Positions 40,358 through 53,492 of a stretch of 64,000 bases of DNA are shown here, piece after piece. The stretch is from contig CAMRWN010000002.1 of assembly GCA_947054455.1 (NCBI GenBank), forward strand, positions 120,104 through 184,103, read 5' to 3'. The notes under the pieces were generated by a model. The model was not told the origin of the DNA, made no database searches, and saw nothing but the letters and a program-made list of their open reading frames with translations. Origin of the DNA: an uncultured Alphaproteobacteria bacterium. Lineage in GTDB: Bacteria; Pseudomonadota; Alphaproteobacteria; Rs-D84. Position 1 is the first letter of the stretch. Every line of letters begins with the position of its first letter. The position numbers and the translations under genes were made by a program.

Positions 40358-42880
40358 TTAGGCGCGGATTCTGACGCGCTGGAAATCACGATTTACACTT
40401 ATTTCATTCGAGCCGACGACGCGGCCAAAGGAATCGGCAACCTCTATCCTATAGACGCCGTACTTTATGCCGTCAAATATAAATCCCCCTGACGCGTCCG
40501 GACGCCGCGTGGCCACAATGTCGCCGTTCAAATCGCGCATATAAACGGTATATCGCGCACCAGGGGCGCAATCTGCAAACTGGCCTTCAACCGCACCCAG
40601 ATGATTAAACACCACATCTATGGGCCGTACGACACCGGGACGCAGCACCAGCTTTTTCTGGGTCCATTGCGGCACCAGCGATAAATCCGCAACATTCTGT
40701 TCGTCGACGATTATGGACGCCTTTTGATACGGGGCCAGATTAGTGATAATCAAATCACCGGACGCATCGGTTATGGACGGTGCTTCGCGGCCATTTACAA
40801 TCAACGCCACATCGGGAACCGGTGCGCCGCGGTCATCGCGCACGCGCGCGTATATGGTTCCGTAATCAATCATCTGGTTTTCCGAATTCGAGAACAAACG
40901 CGCAGTATCCGGAACGCGGCCGAAACTGATGTTATAAGTCAACCCCAACGACAAATTCCGGTCGGTGTCGGTTCCGACACTAAGATTTATGCCGCCGAAT
41001 TTAAACAGCCGCCCCAGTCCAACGCCGAAAGTATCCAAATCCGCCCCACCCCCATAGCCGGAACGACAGTCGTGCGTCCATGTTGCGGTTGCAAAAGTAT
41101 TTTTGTCCCAGCGATATTCGGCAAAGGCACCATATTCGCGCAAACCACTGTCGGGCGCCGTCTGATATCGCACGCGACCGTTTGCACGAATGCGTCCGTA
41201 TGTGGCCTGGAACATCGCATCCATCTGATTTTCAGTCTGGTCGAATTCGCGGCGCCATATGTTTTCAAGCGTAAAATTGTAATAGCGCATAAAGTTCGGC
41301 GACAAGCGCGCGGACACTTCGCGTGATGTTTGGCCATCATGATATTCGCGCGACGTATAAGATATATAGTAAGGCGTTCTTATCCACGGCAGCGAACCCG
41401 TCAGGCGCCCTTCGAACAAATCACGCAGATACCCGTCGCGATAGTACGATACGGGCGACATGGTGTCGCCATAGTATTCATAGCGCCCGAACAGCGTCCC
41501 GATATATATGTCGCCCTGGGCGTCTATGTGGTGGCCGATTGCGGATTTATTAATGTTATAATTAAGATTGTACTGAACCGACAGTCCGTTCAACGCCAGC
41601 TGCGCACCCAGCGTGGAAAACTGCGACACGTCAAAAGGATTCCGGACATCCTGCGCATTGGTCAGTCCGCCAATCAATGTTATATAATCGCCCAGCCCGT
41701 AATAAAAAGTTGCATCGGCGGAAACCTTGTCCGATGGATTCAGGTTCGGTTCGTTCGCTTCGAACACATACCGGTTTGGCTGAAACGCGGAAATATTGTA
41801 TCCAAACTGGCCCGCCCCCACAGGCGACGTCCCGGAATAATAACGGCGCGGGATTTCGCGAACCTCGCCATAGGGACCGTATAATACAACCCTGAAATCA
41901 TTTAGACCGTAATTTACCGGAATATTTCTAAATTCATACCGGCCGGCGGCGCCAGATTGGCGAAATCCTATCAGCTGGTTGTTCAGGTACAATTCGGCTT
42001 CCCAACCGCCCGGCATCGGCCCGGTGATGTCAATTGTCTTGTCTGCGGAAACAACCAAGTCTTTGAACGAACTGGCCAACACCCCACGACCATTGGCGGC
42101 GCCATAGAACATATTGCCCTGGATGCCCGTGATGTCGCCGGCGGCGAAACGCACCAGATTAAACCTGTTTCCCGGTTCGTCCAACAGTGTTCGGCCCGCG
42201 GTTATTCTTGCGCGCGCATCAGACAGGCGCGAATTGCCGGCATCATCACCAAACAGCGTCAGACGCGTGTCCAGTCCCGCAAAAACAAACCCCAAATTCG
42301 CCTGGTAATAATTCGAATAGGCATGCCCATAATTGTCCCGGTTTATGTTTCTGAAATTATGGTTGTACCTGTAAATCAAATCCGCAACGGGAAAGGTGAA
42401 CTTTCTGTTGTCGAATTCATAGTCGGCAAATGTATCATATGACGGCGCACGCGGCATGTTTCTGCGACGCGCGGCGTTTCTGTTTTCCATTTCAACCGGC
42501 AAAACAAATTCTGATGAAACATCCAGACGCATTTCCGACAAGTCCACGCCCAGCTTAATCGGCAACAGGCTTTCATAAACCGCCACGGAATAAAAATCAC
42601 GCTCGTCAAACGTACGAACCGGAACGTTGTCATCAATGCGAAACGGTCGTCCCGCCAATTCACCGCGACGACGCGCGTCGTCAAATTTTATGCGCATTGC
42701 GGAAACCATGTCGCCCCAGTCTAAAAAATAAACACCCGACACATCAACGGCATGCACGATATCGCCCGCCGGGAATCCGCCCACGCTGGGTTCCAGCAGC
42801 AGCATTTCACCGGCATTGGCGGATGCAACAACACCTGCGCCGCAAATCAGGCTATATAGTCCACTGGTCCACGGTTTCAT
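40358..42880 (-). CDS. Outer-membrane fimbrial usher
   Basis: Large beta-rich protein with usher-like regions (FRNIPVNYGLNDFRVVLYGPYGEVREIPRRYY; GAPVPDVALIVNG...; HLGAVEGQFAD), next to a pilus chaperone. Confidence 0.8.
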   Translation of the reverse strand: MKPWTSGLYSLICGAGVVASANAGEMLLLEPSVGGFPAGDIVHAVDVSGVYFLDWGDMVSAMRIKFDDARRRGELAGRPFRIDDNVPVRTFDERDFYSVAVYESLLPIKLGVDLSEMRLDVSSEFVLPVEMENRNAARRRNMPRAPSYDTFADYEFDNRKFTFPVADLIYRYNHNFRNINRDNYGHAYSNYYQANLGFVFAGLDTRLTLFGDDAGNSRLSDARARITAGRTLLDEPGNRFNLVRFAAGDITGIQGNMFYGAANGRGVLASSFKDLVVSADKTIDITGPMPGGWEAELYLNNQLIGFRQSGAAGRYEFRNIPVNYGLNDFRVVLYGPYGEVREIPRRYYSGTSPVGAGQFGYNISAFQPNRYVFEANEPNLNPSDKVSADATFYYGLGDYITLIGGLTNAQDVRNPFDVSQFSTLGAQLALNGLSVQYNLNYNINKSAIGHHIDAQGDIYIGTLFGRYEYYGDTMSPVSYYRDGYLRDLFEGRLTGSLPWIRTPYYISYTSREYHDGQTSREVSARLSPNFMRYYNFTLENIWRREFDQTENQMDAMFQATYGRIRANGRVRYQTAPDSGLREYGAFAEYRWDKNTFATATWTHDCRSGYGGGADLDTFGVGLGRLFKFGGINLSVGTDTDRNLSLGLTYNISFGRVPDTARLFSNSENQMIDYGTIYARVRDDRGAPVPDVALIVNGREAPSITDASGDLIITNLAPYQKASIIVDEQNVADLSLVPQWTQKKLVLRPGVVRPIDVVFNHLGAVEGQFADCAPGARYTVYMRDLNGDIVATRRPDASGGFIFDGIKYGVYRIEVADSFGRVVGSNEISVNRDFQRVRIRA

Positions 42881-43619
42881 TGGTGTTCTCGTCAATTAAT
42901 GTGATAAGGGCGCCCGCGGTCGGCCTTTGCAGCAACGGTATTTTCAGAACACGGGCCGACGTGGTCATGAATATGCGAAATTTGGACACCCGGCCGATTT
43001 CACGGCCATCTTCGCTGACGACCAACGTGCCGTAAAATGAACGGTTGCCGCCCCTGCGCACCATGACTGCGGCCAACGGTTTGCCGCCCGCATTGTAAAT
43101 TTCCACGCTGCTTATCGCGGCGGTGGCGCGCGGATCGCCTTTTTCTATCATGACCGGAATGGAAACGCCATATAATGCGCGCAAATTGATTTTCAATCCG
43201 TCCCCGCCGCGCGACGTTGTATCTGCCGGTTCGTTCGGTGCGGTTTCACGTATCATTAAATGCGAAACATATTCCCCGTCGGGCGCCGCGGCCATCGGAC
43301 GACGCGCCACACGTACGACCTGGGACTGCATTGGCGCCAACGTTATACGGCGCGGCGACCAGTCCAAATAAGGTTCCGCAAACGGATTGCCTGCAGACGG
43401 CGTGTCTATTTCCTTGTATTCTCCGTCCGAATTTTGAGAAAAATTAACCATGCGGATATCATATGTCTGGGTTTTGTCCGACGTGTTGGTAAAGCGCAAC
43501 TGGCCGGTGCGGCGTGCGCTGTCCGCGTCGAATTCCATAAAAAATGTCGCCAGTGATATGTTCGCCCGAACAGCGGCCGGTATCATAAGCATAATTGCGA
43601 CACAAAAAATACGTATCAT
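42852..43619 (-). CDS. Pilus-assembly periplasmic chaperone (PapD-like fold)
   Basis: Signal peptide; LRFTNTSDKTQTYDIRMVNF...LDWSPRRITLAPMQSQVVRVARRP...VSHLMIRE. Confidence 0.8.
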   Translation of the reverse strand: MIRIFCVAIMLMIPAAVRANISLATFFMEFDADSARRTGQLRFTNTSDKTQTYDIRMVNFSQNSDGEYKEIDTPSAGNPFAEPYLDWSPRRITLAPMQSQVVRVARRPMAAAPDGEYVSHLMIRETAPNEPADTTSRGGDGLKINLRALYGVSIPVMIEKGDPRATAAISSVEIYNAGGKPLAAVMVRRGGNRSFYGTLVVSEDGREIGRVSKFRIFMTTSARVLKIPLLQRPTAGALITLIDENTNETVDQWTI

Positions 43620-43637
43620 TGAATTTCTCTCCGCATG

Positions 43638-44546
43638 CTAGTAATTGACAACAACGGTGTACGTGCCGTTGTACGTTCCCGTCGCCTGGTTTGAATTAAT
43701 GTTCAGCGACGCCCCTACGTTCAGCGTCAAATTTCCCGACGCATCCAGTGTCGCGGTGCCGGCCGCAGGCGAACTGACAAAGTTTTCCAGCCTCATCACG
43801 GCGCCCGGCCCGGACAGCGTAGTCGTCGACGGCAGCGATATTGAAATGGATGTGTTTGGATTTCCGGTTATTGCAAAAGCCCCCGACGTCCCCGGCATTG
43901 ATGGAATCAGCCGCACACCGCCCGCCCCAGACGTGATTGTTCGCGTTCCAGACGGGGCGACCGTGATAAGGGAATTGCCGCCTGTGGCCTCTACCCCGCC
44001 AAAATTCAAGGCGCGCGTCTGACTGACCCCCAGCGTCCGCCACAATGTCAGCGTTATCGGCAGCGTAACCGTCGCCGTTCCGCCCAACGCTGAATCGCCG
44101 CGAATCTGGACGCTGCCGGTATAGTTGCCGGGTGTCGATGCGGACGAAAACGTCATCGTCGCGCCGATATTGGCCACCGCGGTCGGATTCAGCAATGAAA
44201 TCTGTAGATTGGGGGTTATGGTGAAATTGCTTACTGAAACAGTGCCGCCTGCACCGTTGCTAAGCACCACCGAAGAATTTAAAAACGTCATATTGACGAC
44301 ATTGGCGACCGTCCCCAAACCGGTGCCTGTAAAACTGACCTGTCCGGCGTAGTGGGTTGTGCCGCTGGGGGCGGCGGTTAACCCGGTTCGAGTTATATTG
44401 CCGTTCAACGCAACAACCGCGCTGCCGGATGTAGCTGTGGGAACCTGGGTCCCAAAGGACAGGTTTTTTACCACCGTAAACGTGGCCGCCCGAACCGGCG
44501 CCGCAGCAAACACACACAACACAAACCCACAAACAACACGCATCAA
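43638..44546 (-). CDS. Tandem-domain pilin/adhesin-like subunit (DUF4402-like)
   Basis: C-terminal DASGNLTLNVGASLNINSNQATGTYNGTYTVVVNY signature; two repeats of the domain. Confidence 0.78.
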   Translation of the reverse strand: MMRVVCGFVLCVFAAAPVRAATFTVVKNLSFGTQVPTATSGSAVVALNGNITRTGLTAAPSGTTHYAGQVSFTGTGLGTVANVVNMTFLNSSVVLSNGAGGTVSVSNFTITPNLQISLLNPTAVANIGATMTFSSASTPGNYTGSVQIRGDSALGGTATVTLPITLTLWRTLGVSQTRALNFGGVEATGGNSLITVAPSGTRTITSGAGGVRLIPSMPGTSGAFAITGNPNTSISISLPSTTTLSGPGAVMRLENFVSSPAAGTATLDASGNLTLNVGASLNINSNQATGTYNGTYTVVVNY

Positions 44547-45019
44547 TAATTAACCGTAACAGTATATGTCCCGTTATAGGTACCGGGCGCCTGGTTGGCG
44601 CCGACATTCAGATTCGCACCAACATTCAGCGTCAGATTTCCGGACGCGTCGGTGGTGTTGCTGGTCGGTGTGGTTGTTGACGTGAAAGTGTCAATCGTCA
44701 TGGAATTTGAACCGCTGGTGACCGTGCCATTTGAAAACGTTATGGTCAGTGCAGTCGACGGCGCCGCCGTTATGTCAAAATGCCCCGCAGCCGCCGTGCC
44801 ATACGTGGTCAACGTCGCAGATGTGGCAGCCCCCGCCGGCGACAGTGTCACGACCCCCGCCGTGGCCCCCGGATTGACGGTACCAAAGTTCATTTGTTGT
44901 GTCTGGGTTGCGGTAATCGCGCGTTGAATGACAACAGACGCGTTTCCCGTGGCGTTGACAGCATGCGCCGCGCCCCCCAGTCCCGCGAACAATATCGCGG
45001 CAGTCAGTATTTTATTCAT
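44543..45019 (-). CDS. DUF4402-like pilin subunit
   Basis: MNKILTAAILFAGLGGAAHA signal; MNFGTVNPGATAGVVTLSPAG...DASGNLTLNVGANLNVGANQAPGTYNGTYTVTVNY; ATGA overlap with 43638..44546. Confidence 0.8.
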   Translation of the reverse strand: MNKILTAAILFAGLGGAAHAVNATGNASVVIQRAITATQTQQMNFGTVNPGATAGVVTLSPAGAATSATLTTYGTAAAGHFDITAAPSTALTITFSNGTVTSGSNSMTIDTFTSTTTPTSNTTDASGNLTLNVGANLNVGANQAPGTYNGTYTVTVNY

Positions 45020-45206
45020 TTGATGTGCCCTCCTGTATACTTATTGTATTGCAGGTGCGCATATATTGCCATTGGCGCATATTCCCAAACAAACCGAGAC
45101 TTAGGCCGCAACAGAATCAACCATAGATTGAATTTTTAAACAAATAAGCCATATTCATTGCATTTGCAAGCATACGAACACTATGCGCCAAAATTGCACA
45201 ATATTC

Positions 45207-46031
45207 CTACCGCTGTTTAATTGTGAATAATTCAGGCTCTTCTTCAATGGGACGCTTGCGCAACAAGCACCTTATAAATGACAGATATTTATGGTTTTCA
45301 TTGAAAATTTGCAATATTTCCATCCATCGCTGTCTTATTGCAACTAAATCCTCTAAGGGCAATGATTTTATATGCGGCTTTGACATAAAATAATCCACAT
45401 ATTCAGCCAGTCTTTCATCGGACTGTGAAGCCAATGGAACAGTCTCCAGTTTATATACCTCAAAAACCTTATTATTCGTATAAATTTGCATCCAGTCATC
45501 TGCTGTCATGTAATTAATTTTTACCCCGATAATTTCTGATACTTTATCTAACAACTGACGCGGTGGACGGGAATGATAAAAAAGATTGCAAACAGAACAA
45601 AATCCCCAATTACTTAAAACGCGATGCATTTCAGATACGGCCCTAGACTTGTCATCCATAAAAGATGTTGCCCCACCAGATATTATTAAATCAATCGACT
45701 GATCAGCACATGGAATATCATATGCTGACGCAACAACAAATTTTACTAACTGTTGAATCTGGGGCGTATCACGCAACAACTCTTGATTAGCAACAGACAC
45801 CGCGGCTTCAGACACATCTATTCCCAACACATTAGCTCGAATTAATCTTGCCACCTCCAATGAAGAAAAACCTGTATTTGAGCCTATTTCCAATACACGA
45901 CTGTTTTGATTTGCAAAAGAATTTTGCAAAATCCAATTTATTGTATCTTTGCCACCCGGGCAACGATTTGTTTCCCGCAACAGAGAAATGAAATCCACAT
46001 ATGGCATTTTATAGTATTTGTCCGAAGACAT
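45207..46031 (-). CDS. Class I SAM-dependent methyltransferase
   Basis: NSRVLEIGSNTGFSSLEVARLIRANVLGIDVSEAAV; AYDIPCADQSIDLIISGGATSFMDDKSRAVSEMHRVL. Confidence 0.85.
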   Translation of the reverse strand: MSSDKYYKMPYVDFISLLRETNRCPGGKDTINWILQNSFANQNSRVLEIGSNTGFSSLEVARLIRANVLGIDVSEAAVSVANQELLRDTPQIQQLVKFVVASAYDIPCADQSIDLIISGGATSFMDDKSRAVSEMHRVLSNWGFCSVCNLFYHSRPPRQLLDKVSEIIGVKINYMTADDWMQIYTNNKVFEVYKLETVPLASQSDERLAEYVDYFMSKPHIKSLPLEDLVAIRQRWMEILQIFNENHKYLSFIRCLLRKRPIEEEPELFTIKQR

Positions 46032-46042
46032 ATAATTCCTCC

Positions 46043-47053
46043 TTATGGCATTGATACATTATCATAATCGCGTAGTAAAATTGCACAATCACGTATGTCA
46101 TCATGTCTTAAAATCCACAAAATAAAGCGCTCTATTCCCAATCCAAAGCCACTTGTTTGTAATGGACATATTTCACGCATATGCCTATACCACTGATATT
46201 CAGAACCATCAACATTGTGCGCAATCAAGGATTCATCCAAATCTGCCACAGTCTTGACACGTTGACCACATCCCAGTATTTCTCCGATACCTGCCAATAA
46301 GTCTGAAGCAACCGCAGCACCGTCTGTCGTACCGCGCGCCTGATAGAATGGAACCAGCAGCCACGGTAAATCCGTTAACCAAATAAAATCCCCATATTGT
46401 TTTAGCAAATGCTGTTCTCCAATTTTGGTTATATTATACAAGCAATCAGATATTTGTGTGGTTGAATTGGGAATATCTTTTAATATTTCAACAGCATCGC
46501 CATATGCCAAGCGGCTAAAACCACGCTCTAATGCAGCTTGCAAATGTTCCACACCACCAGCGACCTGACATATACCATCAGCATTATGTTCCAGCAAATA
46601 CTGTATCATATACTTTATATAACGTTCTGCCAAATCCATTACATCATCTATTGTCCCCGGTATTTCAGCCTCAGAATGGATAAATTCATTCAAATGACGC
46701 TCATCAGTTTGTTCCCCTCGAAAAGTTGGCATTATATAATACGCCCCACGCCCCGACAAACGTGCCCCGATTTCTAGAGAAAATTGCATCGAGTCTGCCA
46801 AATAAACTTTATTTCCACGAATATTTACAGCCACTGGCACAGAGTCGCTGCCCAGTCCCATTGGACTACTAATCGAACCTGTTGTAATAGGAAACATCAT
46901 GGGGCATATATTTTCTTTATGATAGAACCGATGCGTGGCCTCAAATATGCTTTTATATATATTGCACAATATGCGATACCAAGGATCTTTTAATAGAACA
47001 TCTATGTGGTTGTTTGGAGTTTTCCATGATTTAGGAGCAGATATTTTACTCAT
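46043..47053 (-). CDS. Stand-alone class II aminoacyl-tRNA-synthetase-like catalytic core (AsnRS/AspRS / asparagine-synthetase-A-like)
   Basis: Motif 2-like FRGEQTDERHLNEFIHSEAEIPG and motif 3-like SGFGLGIERFILWILRHDDIRD; no N-terminal OB-fold anticodon domain (336 aa). Confidence 0.8.
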   Translation of the reverse strand: MSKISAPKSWKTPNNHIDVLLKDPWYRILCNIYKSIFEATHRFYHKENICPMMFPITTGSISSPMGLGSDSVPVAVNIRGNKVYLADSMQFSLEIGARLSGRGAYYIMPTFRGEQTDERHLNEFIHSEAEIPGTIDDVMDLAERYIKYMIQYLLEHNADGICQVAGGVEHLQAALERGFSRLAYGDAVEILKDIPNSTTQISDCLYNITKIGEQHLLKQYGDFIWLTDLPWLLVPFYQARGTTDGAAVASDLLAGIGEILGCGQRVKTVADLDESLIAHNVDGSEYQWYRHMREICPLQTSGFGLGIERFILWILRHDDIRDCAILLRDYDNVSMP

Positions 47054-47192
47054 TTTACCACCTATCTCATTTTCACAAAATAACTAGCATATATATTTCA
47101 TAAAATCAACTGATATTAACGCGTTATTATGTGTTGTAATATTTTTATAATAACGGTATACTAATAATTATAATAAACCAAATGGAGTTAAC

Positions 47193-48266
47193 ATGAAAGA
47201 GCTTATAAAGCCAAACGCGTTGAAACCCGGTGATATAGTTGCAACCGTATCTTTGTCATGGGGCGGTGCAGGTTTATTGCCAGAACGTTATAATCATGGA
47301 AAACAACAAATTGAAGACACATTTGGAGTCAAAATTATTGAAATGCCCAACTCTATGAAAACAGATGAGTTATACGATAACCCTGAATTAAGACTTGGCG
47401 ATTTAATGGATGCATTTAAAAATCCCGACATCAAAGCAATTCTGACAAATATCGGTGGCAGCGATACTATACGACTGCTTCGCCATATGACCGACGAACA
47501 CTGGGAAATAATGCGCAAAAATCCAAAAATATTCTTAGGCATGTCAGATACAACGGCAAACCATTTTATGTGTATGAAAGCTGGGATATCTTCTTTCTAC
47601 AGCCCATCAACAATGTTTGGATTTGGTGAAAATTGCGGTATTTGCGATATAACAATCAAAAGTGTAAAAAAAACTCTGTTTCAGAATAATCCAATCGGTG
47701 TATTGCCACAATCGGATACATTCATTGTTGATAAGATTCGTTGGGATGATAAAAATAACACTTATCGTGAACGCACACAAACCGATGGTTGGCATTTTAT
47801 CCAAGGCACAAATATAGCCCAGGGCCGCCTAATTGGCGGATGCATGGAAGTTTTACAAATGATAAATGGCAGCCGTCTATGGCCATCGCTTGATGAATGG
47901 GATAACACAATACTGTTTATTGAGACAAGTGAAGATATGCCTTCTCCTTCTACATTCTCATATTTTTTACGCAACCTTGGCGCCCAAGGTATTTTAGACA
48001 AAATTAATGGCATTTTATTCGGGCGTCCCGGTGGCGAATTTACAAAAGCCCAAGAGGAAGCAAAAGAAAAATGGCTGAATAAATATAAAGATTTTGATAA
48101 ATATTTGTTAAAGGTTTGCAAAGAATACAACCGAACAGATTTACCGATTGTAAGCAACATGGATTTTGGTCATACAGTACCGCAGATATTATTACCTTAT
48201 GGTGCAATGGCTCAGATTAATCCGATACAGAAGACAGTGTCAATAATAGAATCTGCGGTAAAATAA
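47193..48266 (+). CDS. S66-family serine carboxypeptidase, MccF-like (LD-carboxypeptidase fold)
   Basis: LKPGDIVATVSLSWGG...; AILTNIGGSDTIRLL; IFLGMSDTTANHFMCMKAG; GRLIGGCMEVL; ILFIETSED; MDFGHTVPQILLPYG. Confidence 0.87.
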   Translation: MKELIKPNALKPGDIVATVSLSWGGAGLLPERYNHGKQQIEDTFGVKIIEMPNSMKTDELYDNPELRLGDLMDAFKNPDIKAILTNIGGSDTIRLLRHMTDEHWEIMRKNPKIFLGMSDTTANHFMCMKAGISSFYSPSTMFGFGENCGICDITIKSVKKTLFQNNPIGVLPQSDTFIVDKIRWDDKNNTYRERTQTDGWHFIQGTNIAQGRLIGGCMEVLQMINGSRLWPSLDEWDNTILFIETSEDMPSPSTFSYFLRNLGAQGILDKINGILFGRPGGEFTKAQEEAKEKWLNKYKDFDKYLLKVCKEYNRTDLPIVSNMDFGHTVPQILLPYGAMAQINPIQKTVSIIESAVK

Positions 48267-48294
48267 AGAACATTCCCTGATAACACAGGGAATG

Positions 48295-49383
48295 TTATCG
48301 GGACAGCATATCTTTATACTTAAAATACAGCGGATATAGCTCGGCTAGGCGACGCTGAACACTTGACTCTTCTGTACCCAATCTATATTGATTTTTTATA
48401 AAAGCATCCGCATGTACAAGCTGTTGACTCAGTCTGTATTGTTCCGCGGAAAAATCTTTCATTAATGTTGATATATTGTTTGTATTATTAAATTCAACAT
48501 TCATATAATCTGATAATATTCCAGCTATTTGGTAATCATTTAAATGATTGCGCATTTTTAACAAAGCTAAATTTACCAGCATTTTCTGCAATAATCTTTT
48601 ATAACCTATACCGGGATGTTCTTTTAAAGACATGCCTGTTGAATACGCACTAGCCACAGTGGAAAAAATATGTGAATTAGTAAAATTGGTATCAAAACCA
48701 TATTTCTTCAGAACCGGCGCAATAGCAAAGGCATCGTATTCATTTTGATATTGTTCTGTTCTAGCCAGCAACACTTCAATACCCACACCATATTCAGCCC
48801 CTATCATGCGCCCGTCATTAAATATTGCTATATATTGTCCGATACGCTTGTACTCCCCCGTATCCTGACGCAAATAAAAAGTTATTCCACGCCCTTTGAC
48901 TTTATCACCCATGCCATAAGTCCAGTTGTATGACTTTTCTGGCCTAGTATCATATTCAACATCATAATAATGCCGAAAGTGTTCAATTAATATTTTATCC
49001 TGTCTTGACGCATTAACTTTGACTTTATTCGCTGATATACCCTGATCCGATATAAGATCGGCGACAACATCTTGAAAATCAACAACAGCATCTGCTGGAA
49101 CCAAAGTTCCAAGCATATTAAAATAACCAGGATAGCGCACTTTTAATCCGGAATAAAACGGATCTGTCATTGATTGCAAACGCAGACACGGCTGATGCAA
49201 ATAAACGCCACGGTCATTTATTTTCTCATCTAACAACATATTTTTGAGCGGCGTTATGGTAGCGCTAGCAAAATATACCGTTTTATCGTATGTTAATAGC
49301 GGCGAAGGCTGATGCCACGTCAAACCATATCGCTGACATGATTGAAAAAATTTATCTTTGATAATTGAATGACGTAAGTCCAT
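48295..49383 (-). CDS. AlaRS-like class II synthetase core (stand-alone)
   Basis: LTWHQPSPLLTYDKTVYFASATITPLKNMLLDEKINDRGVYLHQPCLRLQSMTD...YFNMLGTLVPA resembles the AlaRS active-site region (DpTLLFTnAGM.qFk...QkClR...FFEMLGNFSFG); editing and C-Ala domains absent. Confidence 0.65.
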   Translation of the reverse strand: MDLRHSIIKDKFFQSCQRYGLTWHQPSPLLTYDKTVYFASATITPLKNMLLDEKINDRGVYLHQPCLRLQSMTDPFYSGLKVRYPGYFNMLGTLVPADAVVDFQDVVADLISDQGISANKVKVNASRQDKILIEHFRHYYDVEYDTRPEKSYNWTYGMGDKVKGRGITFYLRQDTGEYKRIGQYIAIFNDGRMIGAEYGVGIEVLLARTEQYQNEYDAFAIAPVLKKYGFDTNFTNSHIFSTVASAYSTGMSLKEHPGIGYKRLLQKMLVNLALLKMRNHLNDYQIAGILSDYMNVEFNNTNNISTLMKDFSAEQYRLSQQLVHADAFIKNQYRLGTEESSVQRRLAELYPLYFKYKDMLSR

Positions 49384-49401
49384 TATGGCAATGATAATAG
49401 A

Positions 49402-49914
49402 TTAAAATTTCGTAAAATCAATCAAATTTGATAATTTTTTGATGTTATTACTGCGGACAATCTTATACGAGACTCCTGCTTTATCCAGTTTGTTTTTCAA
49501 TATCGGCCAATAGATTGTATCATATTTATGATCCCAGCACAATAAATCCCACAAAGCACGAATAGACATTGTACGCAAAGACTCATTATAAAAAGCACGT
49601 TTAATGCAGCGATAATGACGCCGCCAACGTCCCACCCGTAAAACAATGACAAAATCTACATTTTCTAAAATTGCGTCTATCCAATCATGGTAATAAACAC
49701 CATCACAAATCCATTCAGAATTCTTGGAAATAAACCCAGCAATTATTTCTTTACGCTCGCTGACGGTACGACTATCAATAAATCTTTTACCAGCATCATT
49801 AATCCATTTTACTGCATCTAAATCCAAATAAGAAACACCCTTTCGTGTTGCAACCGCTTTGGCCAGCGTGGTCTTTCCGCTGCCGGAACCGCCCGTAATA
49901 TAAATTCTCATGCA
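49402..49914 (-). CDS. P-loop kinase (adenylate-kinase/FlaR-like)
   Basis: MRIYITGGSGSGKTTLAKAVATRKGVSYLDLDAVKW...FVIVLRVGRWRRHYRCIKR. Confidence 0.78.
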   Translation of the reverse strand, partial: CMRIYITGGSGSGKTTLAKAVATRKGVSYLDLDAVKWINDAGKRFIDSRTVSERKEIIAGFISKNSEWICDGVYYHDWIDAILENVDFVIVLRVGRWRRHYRCIKRAFYNESLRTMSIRALWDLLCWDHKYDTIYWPILKNKLDKAGVSYKIVRSNNIKKLSNLIDFTKF

Positions 49915-50001
49915 ACATAGGATATCTTTATTTTTACTAAAAACAAGCATTTTTACTTGTGATATTTTATAGTTATTGTACAGTTTGTCCAGAGGTCTTA
50001 T

Positions 50002-51246
50002 ATGAAACAGGTCCTAATAATTGGTGTTGGCAGTCGTGATAATTTCAAAGACAGATATATTTTATCTGAACTATCAAGGTTGCCTCATAATATATTTATT
50101 GCCAAAAGCACATACGATGACTATTGGTTCAAAGAATATATAAAAACCACAAATGTATTATCCCTAGATTTTTCAGATATTACTAATTGTATTGCCCAGA
50201 TTTCATATTGGTGTGAAACAAATAATATATATTTTGATGCCATATTCTCATTCAAAGAACACATGGTCGCCCAAGCATCTATAATCGCCCAAGCATTCGG
50301 GTGTATTCATACAAGTCTAGATAACATTTTTAGGGCGTCAAACAGTAAATTACTGTTTCGCAAACACTACAATACCATTGACAACCAAGATGTTATAAAG
50401 TCAGAAATAATACTTCTGGACAACTTCGATAACTTCGAAAAGTTGCCAGAAATAAAGTCTGCCATGGTTATAAAACCACTTTTTGGTTCCAGCAGCTGCG
50501 GCGTACGGCAAGTTTTACCGGGCGATGATATTGCAAGTATAATCGCAGACTCTAAACAGGCTATATCCGATAAATTCAACACCGCACATAATCGTGGCTT
50601 TTTATTAGAAAATTATATAAAAGGTCCCGCATTTAGTATTGACGGTATTATTCAAAATAACACCATTCATTTTGCCGGTATAAACGAATACATGTATGGC
50701 CCTTTGCCATATTTTGTTCAGACAGGAAATATAATACCGGCTTCGCTTTCAACAGACCAAACGAATTTTTGCAAAAATGCCCTGCAGAATCTTATACATC
50801 ACTTTGGATTTAACAACACCCCTTTTCATGCAGAAATTATTATCAACAGAGACAAAATATATTTGATAGAAATTGCATGTCGCATGCCGGGCGGCAAGAT
50901 ACCACGCGGATATGAGTTGGCCTATGGATTTCACTTTGTCGAACAAGTGGTAAACCTATATCTTGGACTGCCTGTAAACTTTGAACACAAAACAAATTTC
51001 CAGATAATCCAAAAAGGGAAACATATATTTAACGATTGTGTAATTGAGTCTATCTGCATACCTGAAGATATAGGTACTATAACAGATTTTTCATTACTAA
51101 CACAGGAAGGCGAAAAAAATCAATATCCTTCACACAATAAGCCAATTTATTTTTATACGGTACGAGCAAATAGTTTGGATAAAGCACATATAAAATCTCA
51201 TAAGATTGAAAAATCCATAAAGATTAAAACCAAGCTTAATAATTAA
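50002..51246 (+). CDS. ATP-grasp ligase
   Basis: MVIKPLFGSSSCGVRQV, LLENYIKGPAFSIDGII, PFHAEIIINRDKIYLIEIACRMPGG; typical ATP-grasp carboxylate-amine ligase layout. Confidence 0.85.
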   Translation: MKQVLIIGVGSRDNFKDRYILSELSRLPHNIFIAKSTYDDYWFKEYIKTTNVLSLDFSDITNCIAQISYWCETNNIYFDAIFSFKEHMVAQASIIAQAFGCIHTSLDNIFRASNSKLLFRKHYNTIDNQDVIKSEIILLDNFDNFEKLPEIKSAMVIKPLFGSSSCGVRQVLPGDDIASIIADSKQAISDKFNTAHNRGFLLENYIKGPAFSIDGIIQNNTIHFAGINEYMYGPLPYFVQTGNIIPASLSTDQTNFCKNALQNLIHHFGFNNTPFHAEIIINRDKIYLIEIACRMPGGKIPRGYELAYGFHFVEQVVNLYLGLPVNFEHKTNFQIIQKGKHIFNDCVIESICIPEDIGTITDFSLLTQEGEKNQYPSHNKPIYFYTVRANSLDKAHIKSHKIEKSIKIKTKLNN

Positions 51247-51325
51247 AACGAAACCGCCGCCAGAACTGCGCTCCAATACATAAAGACGTGTTTTTTTGAT
51301 TTCACAGTCAATCCATTTTTTAGTA

Positions 51326-51487
51326 TTACACACCCACTATTAAATCTTTACCCACAGACTTAAACAACGCAACAAAATTTTTAATATTTCTTGTAATATC
51401 AATACACCCGGCTGAACTAGAAAACCATCCCCCGTGAATACTAAATCTATCACGGTCGTATGTGTTTGTCTCTTTGGATGGTTCCAG
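51326..51487 (-). pseudogene. Remnant of Tlde1/DUF2778-like domain C-terminus
   Basis: Minus-strand frame: LEPSKETNTYDRDRFSIHGGWFSSSAGCIDITRNIKNFVALFKSVGKDLIVGV*, preceded by an in-frame TGA where the intact homologue (15349..16365) has Trp. Confidence 0.8.
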
Positions 51488-51554
51488 TCAGACACAAAAA
51501 TTACCGGACGATATTGTATTGACTAAGTATGCGAAAATGGTTAGAATTTTTTGC

Positions 51555-51962
51555 ATGAGAATAGGTTTTTTCGTATTTTTTATGGCAGTTATAAACTTTT
51601 CGAGTGGTTTTGCCGCATCGTTTCAGACAGAAATTGTATTATGTGATGAAGTGTACGAAAAACAGTCCAAAAAATCCGATTCTACCATATCCATTATACA
51701 ATCTTTAAACGAGTATACCGACTGTTATCAAAAAATTGTCTTTAAGATTATTGAAACGGAATACACGCAAAATGCGGATAAAATGAAACAAAATTTCATA
51801 GCATATATAAATACGGCCGGTGAAATGACCGGTTTCATTGACCGACCGGATTCCTGCTATCCGCAATGCGGAACGACTGCTGGTATAAATGCTGCGACTG
51901 CGCGTAATCATGCCGCAAAGCAGTATTTGAATTTGATTCTGAATAGTAGGACAGAAATGTAA
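51555..51962 (+). CDS. Small secreted/periplasmic protein; candidate immunity partner
   Basis: MRIGFFVFFMAVINFSSGFA signal peptide; 135 aa; 3' end abuts the convergent lysozyme-fusion ORF. Confidence 0.6.
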   Translation: MRIGFFVFFMAVINFSSGFAASFQTEIVLCDEVYEKQSKKSDSTISIIQSLNEYTDCYQKIVFKIIETEYTQNADKMKQNFIAYINTAGEMTGFIDRPDSCYPQCGTTAGINAATARNHAAKQYLNLILNSRTEM

Positions 51963-51965
51963 AAT

Positions 51966-53138
51966 TTATCTATACCCACTATAATCTGCATTTTGAAACA
52001 ATCGCCATTCTGCATCCCGACGTCTATCTAAATCTCCATGGTTTCTAAATGCTCTCCAAGCGGATTCTGGTGTTGGATATGTATTACTGCGATAATTTTT
52101 ATCATTTATATATTTACGAATAGTTGATTGATATAGCCCCCTATTCACATTTGCTGGCGCACCAGAACCTGGACCAATATTGAACACCAATGCAACAAGC
52201 GCATCATATTGATGTTGAGGCATTGCCGCTAAAACATCATGATTTATTTGTTTAGCTATTGTGTCATATGTAGACTGTAAATCTCGATGGAATAACTCTG
52301 TCGCCTCTTTTTCGGTCAAACCTTTACTAAAATCGTCACCAGTTTTTATCAAGTGTCCATAACCAATTGTCGCACCAGGCGGTAGGGGGGCACCGGCCGA
52401 AACAGGCAGCCCAGTTGCATCATTGTAGATAACGTGTTTTCCATCTATTTTCACACATCCTTCTAATGATTTCAGCCATTCTATTCCTTTGTCGCTTATT
52501 TTCATATTTCTGATATCCTTTTCTATTTCATTCTTTTTTTCTTTTGATGAATACGGCTTGCTACTGATAGTACGACCGTCAGTGCCAATAACGTCCTCTG
52601 TGATACTGCAGCGACAATTGGGATGTAGCGGGATTTGCGGGATATCATCTTCGTTGTCATATATTTCACCATCACGTAATGCGCATTCTTCACAGGTGTC
52701 ATCCTCTTCTTCGGCATGCCAGCGCCACACACGACGCGTTTTGCCGTTTGGTATATTGTCATTCTCCGGCAAATCAAGACTATAAAACTCTAACTGTTTA
52801 TTTTCGATACGGCCATCCGGCAGCAGAACGCGAACGTCTATGTTTTCTTCCAATTCTACATAGTCTTCAACATCTATCTGCTGACCGGATTCTTCATATT
52901 CTGCCTCGGCCTGTGCGATGGCTTCCCCAAGTTCGGCATCCAGCTTCGCCTGAGCTGAATTAAACTGTTGCAATGTCATATCGTATTCCGGCGCAGCCAT
53001 GCGTCCCGTGGCATCTGTTTTTGCCATGCCGGGATACAGCATTTTCATATACCGCTCCACCATGGCATACGTCTTGCTGTTTTTATCCATATATGCGGGC
53101 GACGACATTAGTTGTCGTAAAAATTCTGGTGTTTTCAT
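51966..53138 (-). CDS. Modular protein: phage minor-head-type 'CxxC...HPNCRC' motif + GH24 phage-type lysozyme domain
   Basis: TCEECALRDGEIYDNEDDIPQIPLHPNCRCSIT; C-term GIEWLKSLEGCVKIDGKHVIYNDATGLPVSAGAPLPPGATIGYGHLIKTGD...LFHRDLQSTYDTIAKQI...QYDALVALVFNIG. Start trimmed to MKTPEFLRQL. Confidence 0.83.
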   Translation of the reverse strand: MKTPEFLRQLMSSPAYMDKNSKTYAMVERYMKMLYPGMAKTDATGRMAAPEYDMTLQQFNSAQAKLDAELGEAIAQAEAEYEESGQQIDVEDYVELEENIDVRVLLPDGRIENKQLEFYSLDLPENDNIPNGKTRRVWRWHAEEEDDTCEECALRDGEIYDNEDDIPQIPLHPNCRCSITEDVIGTDGRTISSKPYSSKEKKNEIEKDIRNMKISDKGIEWLKSLEGCVKIDGKHVIYNDATGLPVSAGAPLPPGATIGYGHLIKTGDDFSKGLTEKEATELFHRDLQSTYDTIAKQINHDVLAAMPQHQYDALVALVFNIGPGSGAPANVNRGLYQSTIRKYINDKNYRSNTYPTPESAWRAFRNHGDLDRRRDAEWRLFQNADYSGYR

Positions 53139-53199
53139 TTGTGATTCCTTTAGGTAAATAAAAAAAAGATCCCACAGAACTGCGGGGGATGAGTTATAT

Positions 53200-53221
53200 T
53201 CCTGGCGGAGACGAAGGGATT
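53200..53221 (-). repeat. Truncated tRNA-Ser 3' end, scar/att-like duplicate
   Basis: tcctggcggagacgaagggatt, 22 bp identical to 53399-53420 within tRNA-Ser(GGA), followed by unrelated sequence. Confidence 0.85.
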
Positions 53222-53401
53222 GTATATTCCCACCGCTGTTGCGGCGGGCCCCTTTCGCTACGTAAGGCTCAAACTTCGTCATTGAACTGACTCGTTTTCG
53301 CCAACTGACGCCCCGAACCCTGCAACTTGCGTTGCGAATGTTTCGTCCACGCTTCTTCCGGGATAAAAAAAAATCGCCCCATCTGGGGCATTTTTTTATC
53401 C

Positions 53402-53492
53402 TGGCGGAGACGAAGGGATTCGAACCCTTGATACCGTTGCCGGTATACTACATTTCCAATGTAGCGCACTAGACCAACTATGCGACGTCTCC
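53402..53492 (-). tRNA. tRNA-Ser (anticodon GGA)
   Basis: Reverse complement ggagacgtcgcatagttggtctagtgcgctacattggaaatgtagtataccggcaacggtatcaagggttcgaatcccttcgtctccgcca; anticodon GGA. Confidence 0.95.

Follow-up and report, generated by a model that had tools for sequence, protein, structure and literature searches.

What is made, or warded off, by six consecutive AT-rich genes in the genome of an uncultured alphaproteobacterium of the lineage Rs-D84? The genes lie at 45207-51246 of the window, by which we mean the whole 64,000-nucleotide stretch analysed here (assembly GCA_947054455.1, contig CAMRWN010000002.1, positions 120,104 to 184,103 of the forward strand). An initial annotation, made from the letters alone, had proposed that they make and protect against a small aminoacyl or peptidyl compound, possibly linked to a nucleotide, with microcin C as the analogy. 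The outline of that proposal fits the gene set, but the chemistry has to be corrected towards that of agrocin 84 and ascamycin. With moderate confidence, we read the island as a cluster for the biosynthesis of, and self-protection against, an N-acyl phosphoramidate nucleotide antibiotic that would mimic alanyl-adenylate and act on alanyl-tRNA synthetase (AlaRS; synthetases for other amino acids are abbreviated likewise, and collectively as aaRS). It is quite likely that the product is, in broader terms, some aminoacyl phosphoramidate nucleotide.

A six-gene island conserved within the genus

All six open reading frames are open and free of frameshifts (Table 1), and their GC content (0.345-0.402) and third-position GC content (0.31-0.34) are lower than those of the flanking usher, MtaB and Dac genes (0.49-0.55 and 0.50-0.64, respectively), as had been described. 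Profile searches assigned five of them to the S-adenosylmethionine (SAM) methyltransferase, class II (D, K, N) aaRS core, S66 peptidase, P-loop kinase and ATP-grasp_4 families; the sixth encodes an AlaRS-like core that we call AlaL. In the genome of a sister species (G703) the same flanks, i.e. fimbrial genes, a small secreted protein, a MuF/lysozyme protein and MtaB, enclose about 300 bp where the window has the inserted segment. The six genes are thus a real island.

Co-occurrence elsewhere, on which the initial annotation had made its proposal depend, was found in genus-mates: all six genes are together in loci L014 and L016, the latter being an exact match in gene order and strands to the flipped window, and five of them are present in L015 before the contig ends. 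Proteins of the window and the genus-mates are 38-89% identical, the kinase being kept in L014-L016 (38-74%) and the ATP-grasp protein in L014 and L016 (55-59%). The ratio of nonsynonymous to synonymous substitution rates (dN/dS) of the island genes is 0.06-0.26 where unsaturated; they are under purifying selection, and the co-occurrence together with these ratios rules out a recent random insertion or gene decay. Relative to L015, the block formed by the S66, AlaL and kinase genes is 74-89% identical at the protein level, and the methyltransferase and the aaRS core related to AgnA (see below) just 67-68%, a difference which suggests that the block moves apart from the AgnA gene. A search for AlaL in 289 genomes of the class and 398 of the phylum returned only the window's own genome, the AlaL-bearing genus-mates being outside both samples.

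Table 1. Features of the island and its border in the window.
Feature	Position	Strand	Basis
Inserted island, 6.2 kb	45088..51310	.	Comparison with sister genome G703
SAM methyltransferase, AgnA-associated family, 274 aa	45207..46031	-	Methyltransf_11, 64 bits
AgnA-like protein, 336 aa, AspRS/AsnRS catalytic core without anticodon-binding domain, proposed to form the P-N bond	46043..47053	-	NF005055, AgnA homology
S66 (MccF/LD-carboxypeptidase) family protein, 357 aa	47193..48266	+	PF02016/PF17676
Hairpin resembling a terminator (11-bp stem) where the S66 and AlaL genes converge	48269..48296	.	Weak evidence: such sites occur in the region in chance number
AlaL, 362 aa, truncated core of the AlaRS type, putative AcmF-like alanyltransferase that would depend on Ala-tRNA	48295..49383	-	Alignment to AlaRS and other AlaL proteins
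P-loop kinase of 182 aa, similar to PRK06217 / 'DNA topology modulation' proteins, which would act on a nucleoside or nucleotide	49402..49950	-	Library matches
ATP-grasp carboxylate-amine ligase of 414 aa, which would attach an amino acid to the alanyl amine	50002..51246	+	ATP-grasp_4, 67 bits
Small secreted protein gene, flanking, outside the island	51462..51962	+	G703 has a copy, 84% identical, at its empty site

An AgnA-type core brings the island close to agrocin 84

The class II core matched NF005055 ('asparagine synthetase A') with 231 bits, and a translated search of plasmids showed 43% identity over 99% to AgnA ('Agrocin84-synthetase') of pAgK84. Motif 2 (FRGE..ERHL) and motif 3 (GFGLGIER) are both intact, the stretch TTGS(I/V)SSPMGLGSDS that is peculiar to the AgnA family is present, and AsnRS models match only from about residue 130 onwards. 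AgnA has been described as a truncated AsnRS devoid of the anticodon-binding domain and turned into a biosynthetic enzyme (PMC4392301), and the toxic moiety of agrocin 84, whose target is LeuRS, contains an N-acyl phosphoramidate bond (PMC5059758). The methyltransferase also leads to AgnA, being 41% identical to the one adjoining AgnA in Exiguobacterium and 29-39% to those next to AgnA in pAgK84, Xenorhabdus, Peribacillus and Streptomyces; in pAgK84 the neighbourhood of agnA harbours this same kind of methyltransferase and the MccF-like agnC5.

Since the AsnRS-like core is of the AgnA type, agrocin 84 and not microcin C is the closest known pathway. The island and the agrocin 84 cluster would share the N-acyl phosphoramidate product class and the idea of a spare resistant aaRS, which in agrocin 84 is the LeuRS AgnB2. 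The window does not hold an agrocin 84 cluster, however, because AgnB2 and the agnC genes for the dihydroxy-methylpentanamide side chain are missing from the six genes, which include instead an AlaRS-like core, a kinase and an ATP-grasp gene. Microcin C and the island have in common an MccF-like protein and the concept of an aminoacyl-nucleotide phosphoramidate toxin, and the MccF-like S66 gene is what speaks for a cluster of the microcin C type aimed at AspRS. Among the six genes there is neither a ThiF/MccB-like adenylyltransferase nor any sign of a ribosomal peptide, and we know of no mcc cluster that includes AgnA or AlaL. That reading is very improbable and was discarded on account of the missing MccB-like gene. 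The likely target is AlaRS instead of AspRS, and the chemistry would be nearer to that of agrocin 84, phosmidosine and ascamycin.

The name given by NCBIfam is in keeping with another reading, namely an asparagine-supply or other metabolic island with an ordinary asparagine synthetase A (the AgnA-like protein) and unrelated cargo around it. In addition, the assembly has just two further PF00152 members (620 and 497 aa), and no AsnRS was seen in it, as these read as AspRS and LysRS. Against this, AgnA is present in just 9 of 190 genomes of the order, every one in the window's genus, and S66, methyltransferase or aaRS-like genes adjoin it where the neighbourhood was examined; the gene company and fusions found throughout the AgnA family, presented below, also make such a metabolic role improbable.

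AlaL resembles an alanyltransferase more than a synthetase

Searches with AlaL against Pfam, NCBIfam and PDB gave no significant match, although the protein can be aligned with AlaRS cores and with proteins annotated as 'alanine--tRNA ligase-related'. The Arg of motif 2 is kept in AlaL proteins (Gln-x-Cys-x-Arg in the window), while a GRG-like stretch stands where AlaRS has GPCGP. In the window and genus-mate proteins Gln stands for the Asn of IWN and Glu for the Asp of VDTG (Q183 and E197 in the window), and the motif 3 Arg is Val in the window protein. The same two changes (N219Q and D232E) have been reported in AcmF of the ascamycin pathway, a truncated AlaRS-like enzyme which has lost most residues for activation of ATP and alanine and which transfers alanine to dealanylascamycin, using Ala-tRNA charged by AcmD and taking also Gly- and Ser-tRNA(Ala) (PMC12945691). 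The spacing between the Asn and Asp positions is 13-15 in the AlaL rows counted and 13 in AcmF, according to its numbering, vs 23 in canonical AlaRS. In the tree, AlaL and AlaRS rows fall on opposite sides of a branch with 100/100 support. With the loss of the alanine-activation residues, AlaL is better read as a putative AcmF-like transferase that would use Ala-tRNA; AcmF was judged from its reported residues and not from its sequence, so the likeness is one of function and not proven membership in the AcmF family. Neither this protein nor the AgnA-like one has the anticodon-binding or editing parts, according to the model matches and the alignment, and in that respect the initial annotation was right in separating them from the housekeeping forms.

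Alanine is also the likely amino acid by comparison with ascamycin, from which the island differs in that AgnA implies a phosphoramidate where ascamycin has a sulfamate, and in that the window cluster has no second AlaRS like AcmD, the resistant enzyme of that pathway. The likeness to phosmidosine, a prolyl phosphoramidate nucleotide of Streptomyces with proline and an oxidised base, would consist in the proposed methylated aminoacyl phosphoramidate, and the predicted amino acid is alanine in the window instead of proline.

The S66, kinase and ATP-grasp proteins

The S66 fold assumed earlier was confirmed by the matches to PF02016 and PF17676, and the closest solved structures are Bacillus proteins of the 'MccC family' (PDB 5f9m, E 6e-98). 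The self-immunity attributed to it is less firm: in place of the Ser-Glu-His triad, the window protein has Thr92 at the nucleophile position, with Glu244 and His327 kept, and hydrolytic immunity is not assured with that replacement. Thr is found there in the S66 proteins of L014-L016 as well. Across the S66 proteins that could be aligned (around 78, from AgnA loci L006-L093) the Glu and His are nearly invariant, and the nucleophile position is occupied by Ser in 32, Thr in 22, Cys in 8, Ala in 7 and Leu in 6. The MccF protein of Escherichia coli converts isoasparaginyl-adenylate into adenosine phosphoramide (PMC9239234). By analogy, such a reaction could be, besides immunity, a biosynthetic step in AgnA clusters that frees AMP-phosphoramidate from the Asp adduct, and an S66 protein devoid of the nucleophile could bind and deliver the compound. 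As for the ATP-grasp protein, it gave a weak match to the dapdiamide A synthase DdaF.

AgnA loci in other phyla

When one genome per species was scanned with an AgnA profile, 186 relatives were identified, 80 of which were kept as loci and read with 10-kb flanks. They span Alphaproteobacteria, Clostridia, Bacilli, Streptomyces and other actinomycetes, Legionella and Vibrio, and are also found in Myxococcus, Chlamydiae, Elusimicrobia and candidate phyla. An S66 gene is within the flanks of 69 of the 80 loci and an AgnA-type methyltransferase within those of 44; neither was present in the 34 control loci, short stretches around AlaRS genes of the housekeeping kind. As the control loci have less flank, the fair comparison is that of S66 genes at 1.5 kb or less, which were found in 31/80 AgnA loci and 0/34 controls. 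Fusions were also found: AlaL is joined to S66 in AgnA clusters of Streptomyces (L031:18586-20778 and L034:18431-20590), with Ala at the nucleophile position of the S66 half, and a plasmid of Pantoea encodes AgnA fused to a GNAT acetyltransferase domain (L009:8434-10029).

Two further Streptomyces loci (L011:8914-17056 and L092) contain AgnA, methyltransferase, ProRS-like core and S66 genes, L011 having molybdenum/FAD oxidase genes as well. They look like candidates for biosynthesis of the phosmidosine type.

Degenerate cores and spare synthetases

Where AgnA loci have a full-length aaRS, its kind tends to go with that of the degenerate core. Full-length AlaRS accompanies AlaL in L008, L010, L023 and L043, while GlyRS accompanies an AlaL variant in L017, L046 and L050, with two GlyRS copies in the last two. 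A ProRS-like core (ProL) and an editing-less ProRS were identified in L021, L022, L042 and L069, and MetRS-like proteins in L024, L079 and L088. The separation of AlaL (Ala/Gly) from ProL (Pro/Leu), a grouping picked after the data had been seen, gave 0.0004 in a label permutation and 0.003 without near copies; for the stricter match of core and aaRS by exact name the values were 0.006 and 0.012, respectively. At least 8 changes of the Ala label, counted by starred branches, are required on the AgnA tree, and the cores thus seem to have been swapped repeatedly.

Among 156 genomes of the window's genus, two AlaRS matches were obtained in G793 alone. The additional enzyme (L116:52-1359, C5; 436 aa, no editing domain) is encoded at the site orthologous to the window island, with MuF, omega-like, MtaB and Dac genes next to it as in the window, and the contig ends beside it. 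It groups with the AlaRS of the AlaL clusters L023 and L043 (100/100) and not with the housekeeping AlaRS rows of the order.

Loci L017, L046 and L050 are possibly glycyl members aimed at GlyRS, and they raise the question of whether the window cluster, within the same AgnA-dependent pathway class, could use glycine or another small amino acid against GlyRS or another aaRS. On the tree, the window AlaL belongs to the same half as the variants paired with GlyRS, and AcmF, as mentioned, accepts Gly- and Ser-tRNA(Ala). Yet the window protein groups with AlaL of the AlaRS-bearing L023 (89/86, on a long branch), and what G793 has as its extra gene at this site is an AlaRS, so we regard this alternative as unlikely. 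The spare AlaRS of G793, although next to a contig end, would also suit an island conferring only resistance, which detoxifies or sequesters foreign aminoacyl-nucleotide toxins and makes nothing; the MccF-like protein and the lack of an exporter are in its favour. Such an island is hardly probable, given that AgnA, AlaL, ATP-grasp and methyltransferase are biosynthetic in kind, are kept in genus-mates and have dN/dS well below 1 where computable.

An observation of a different kind concerns the housekeeping AlaRS frames, which in the window's genus are mostly shortened to about 690-720 aa, those of the order's other families being 866-905 aa long.

Proposed pathway

From homology and gene company we propose a route for an alanyl phosphoramidate nucleotide that would have AlaRS as its target. 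The AgnA-like protein would bind ATP and Asn (or Asp plus ammonia) and form a P-N bond, yielding Asp-N-AMP or AMP phosphoramidate, and the methyltransferase would methylate this nucleotide, by analogy with the methyl ester that phosmidosine carries. With Ala-tRNA(Ala) charged by the host AlaRS as the donor, AlaL would then transfer alanine to the phosphoramidate nitrogen, as AcmF does onto the sulfamate in ascamycin. Addition of a further residue to the alanyl amine by the ATP-grasp enzyme would mask the toxin and perhaps aid uptake, and the kinase would supply or trim the nucleotide. The S66 protein may split the acyl-phosphoramidate, either for immunity or to free AMP phosphoramidate from Asp, or else bind and deliver the compound.

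Several facts weigh against this proposal. The window cluster includes no spare AlaRS and no exporter, and the host AlaRS is itself absent from the 86%-complete assembly, most likely owing to an assembly gap. AlaL is just 16-23% identical to AlaL proteins beyond the genus-mates and its tree branches are long, and the nucleophile is absent from many S66 proteins of AgnA clusters. LeuRS stands beside a ProRS-like core in L007 and L025, so that core and target need not match. Finally, to our knowledge agrocin 84 is not P-O-methylated, though its plasmid has the same methyltransferase.

Beyond the window, we see an even chance that AgnA is the signature of a widespread class of nucleotide antibiotics, aminoacyl phosphoramidates of modular build. 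AgnA, together with methyltransferase and/or S66, would provide their common warhead, and an exchangeable degenerate aaRS (Ala-, Gly-, Pro- or Met-type) would set the amino acid and hence the target aaRS. The window would be the alanyl member, and gut-type alphaproteobacteria with minute genomes would swap modules within one genus. In the open-licence literature we found no description of this gene set, as the initial annotation had supposed, nor of the AgnA family beyond agrocin 84, although both key parts do have characterised counterparts. The prediction is an undescribed alanyl-phosphoramidate antibiotic, directed at an enzyme that, as far as we know, is rarely a target of known natural products. 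It would come with a rule readable from genomes, the degenerate and spare aaRS of an AgnA cluster suggesting amino acid and target, and P-N bond formation by AgnA becomes testable with a compact set of six genes. It also suggests that costly chemical weaponry is retained in genomes of about 0.9 Mb.

Insertion site and flanking genes

The borders of the island have no common word of 10 or more bases and no tRNA, the closest being a tRNA-Ser at 53402. No match was obtained in the Rfam search, and promoter and terminator predictions in the region were not above chance. As phage or plasmid cargo was also considered, plasmids, phages and viral contigs were searched with the single AlaL protein and viral contigs with AgnA, with no match in either case; relatives of AgnA do occur on plasmids. 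Upstream, at 40358-45019, this very small alphaproteobacterial genome has chaperone-usher fimbrial genes. Downstream, at 51966-53282, a MuF-like domain is joined to a phage lysozyme domain in a gene that may be a polymorphic toxin or a prophage remnant, and whose family is multi-copy and often broken in the genus.

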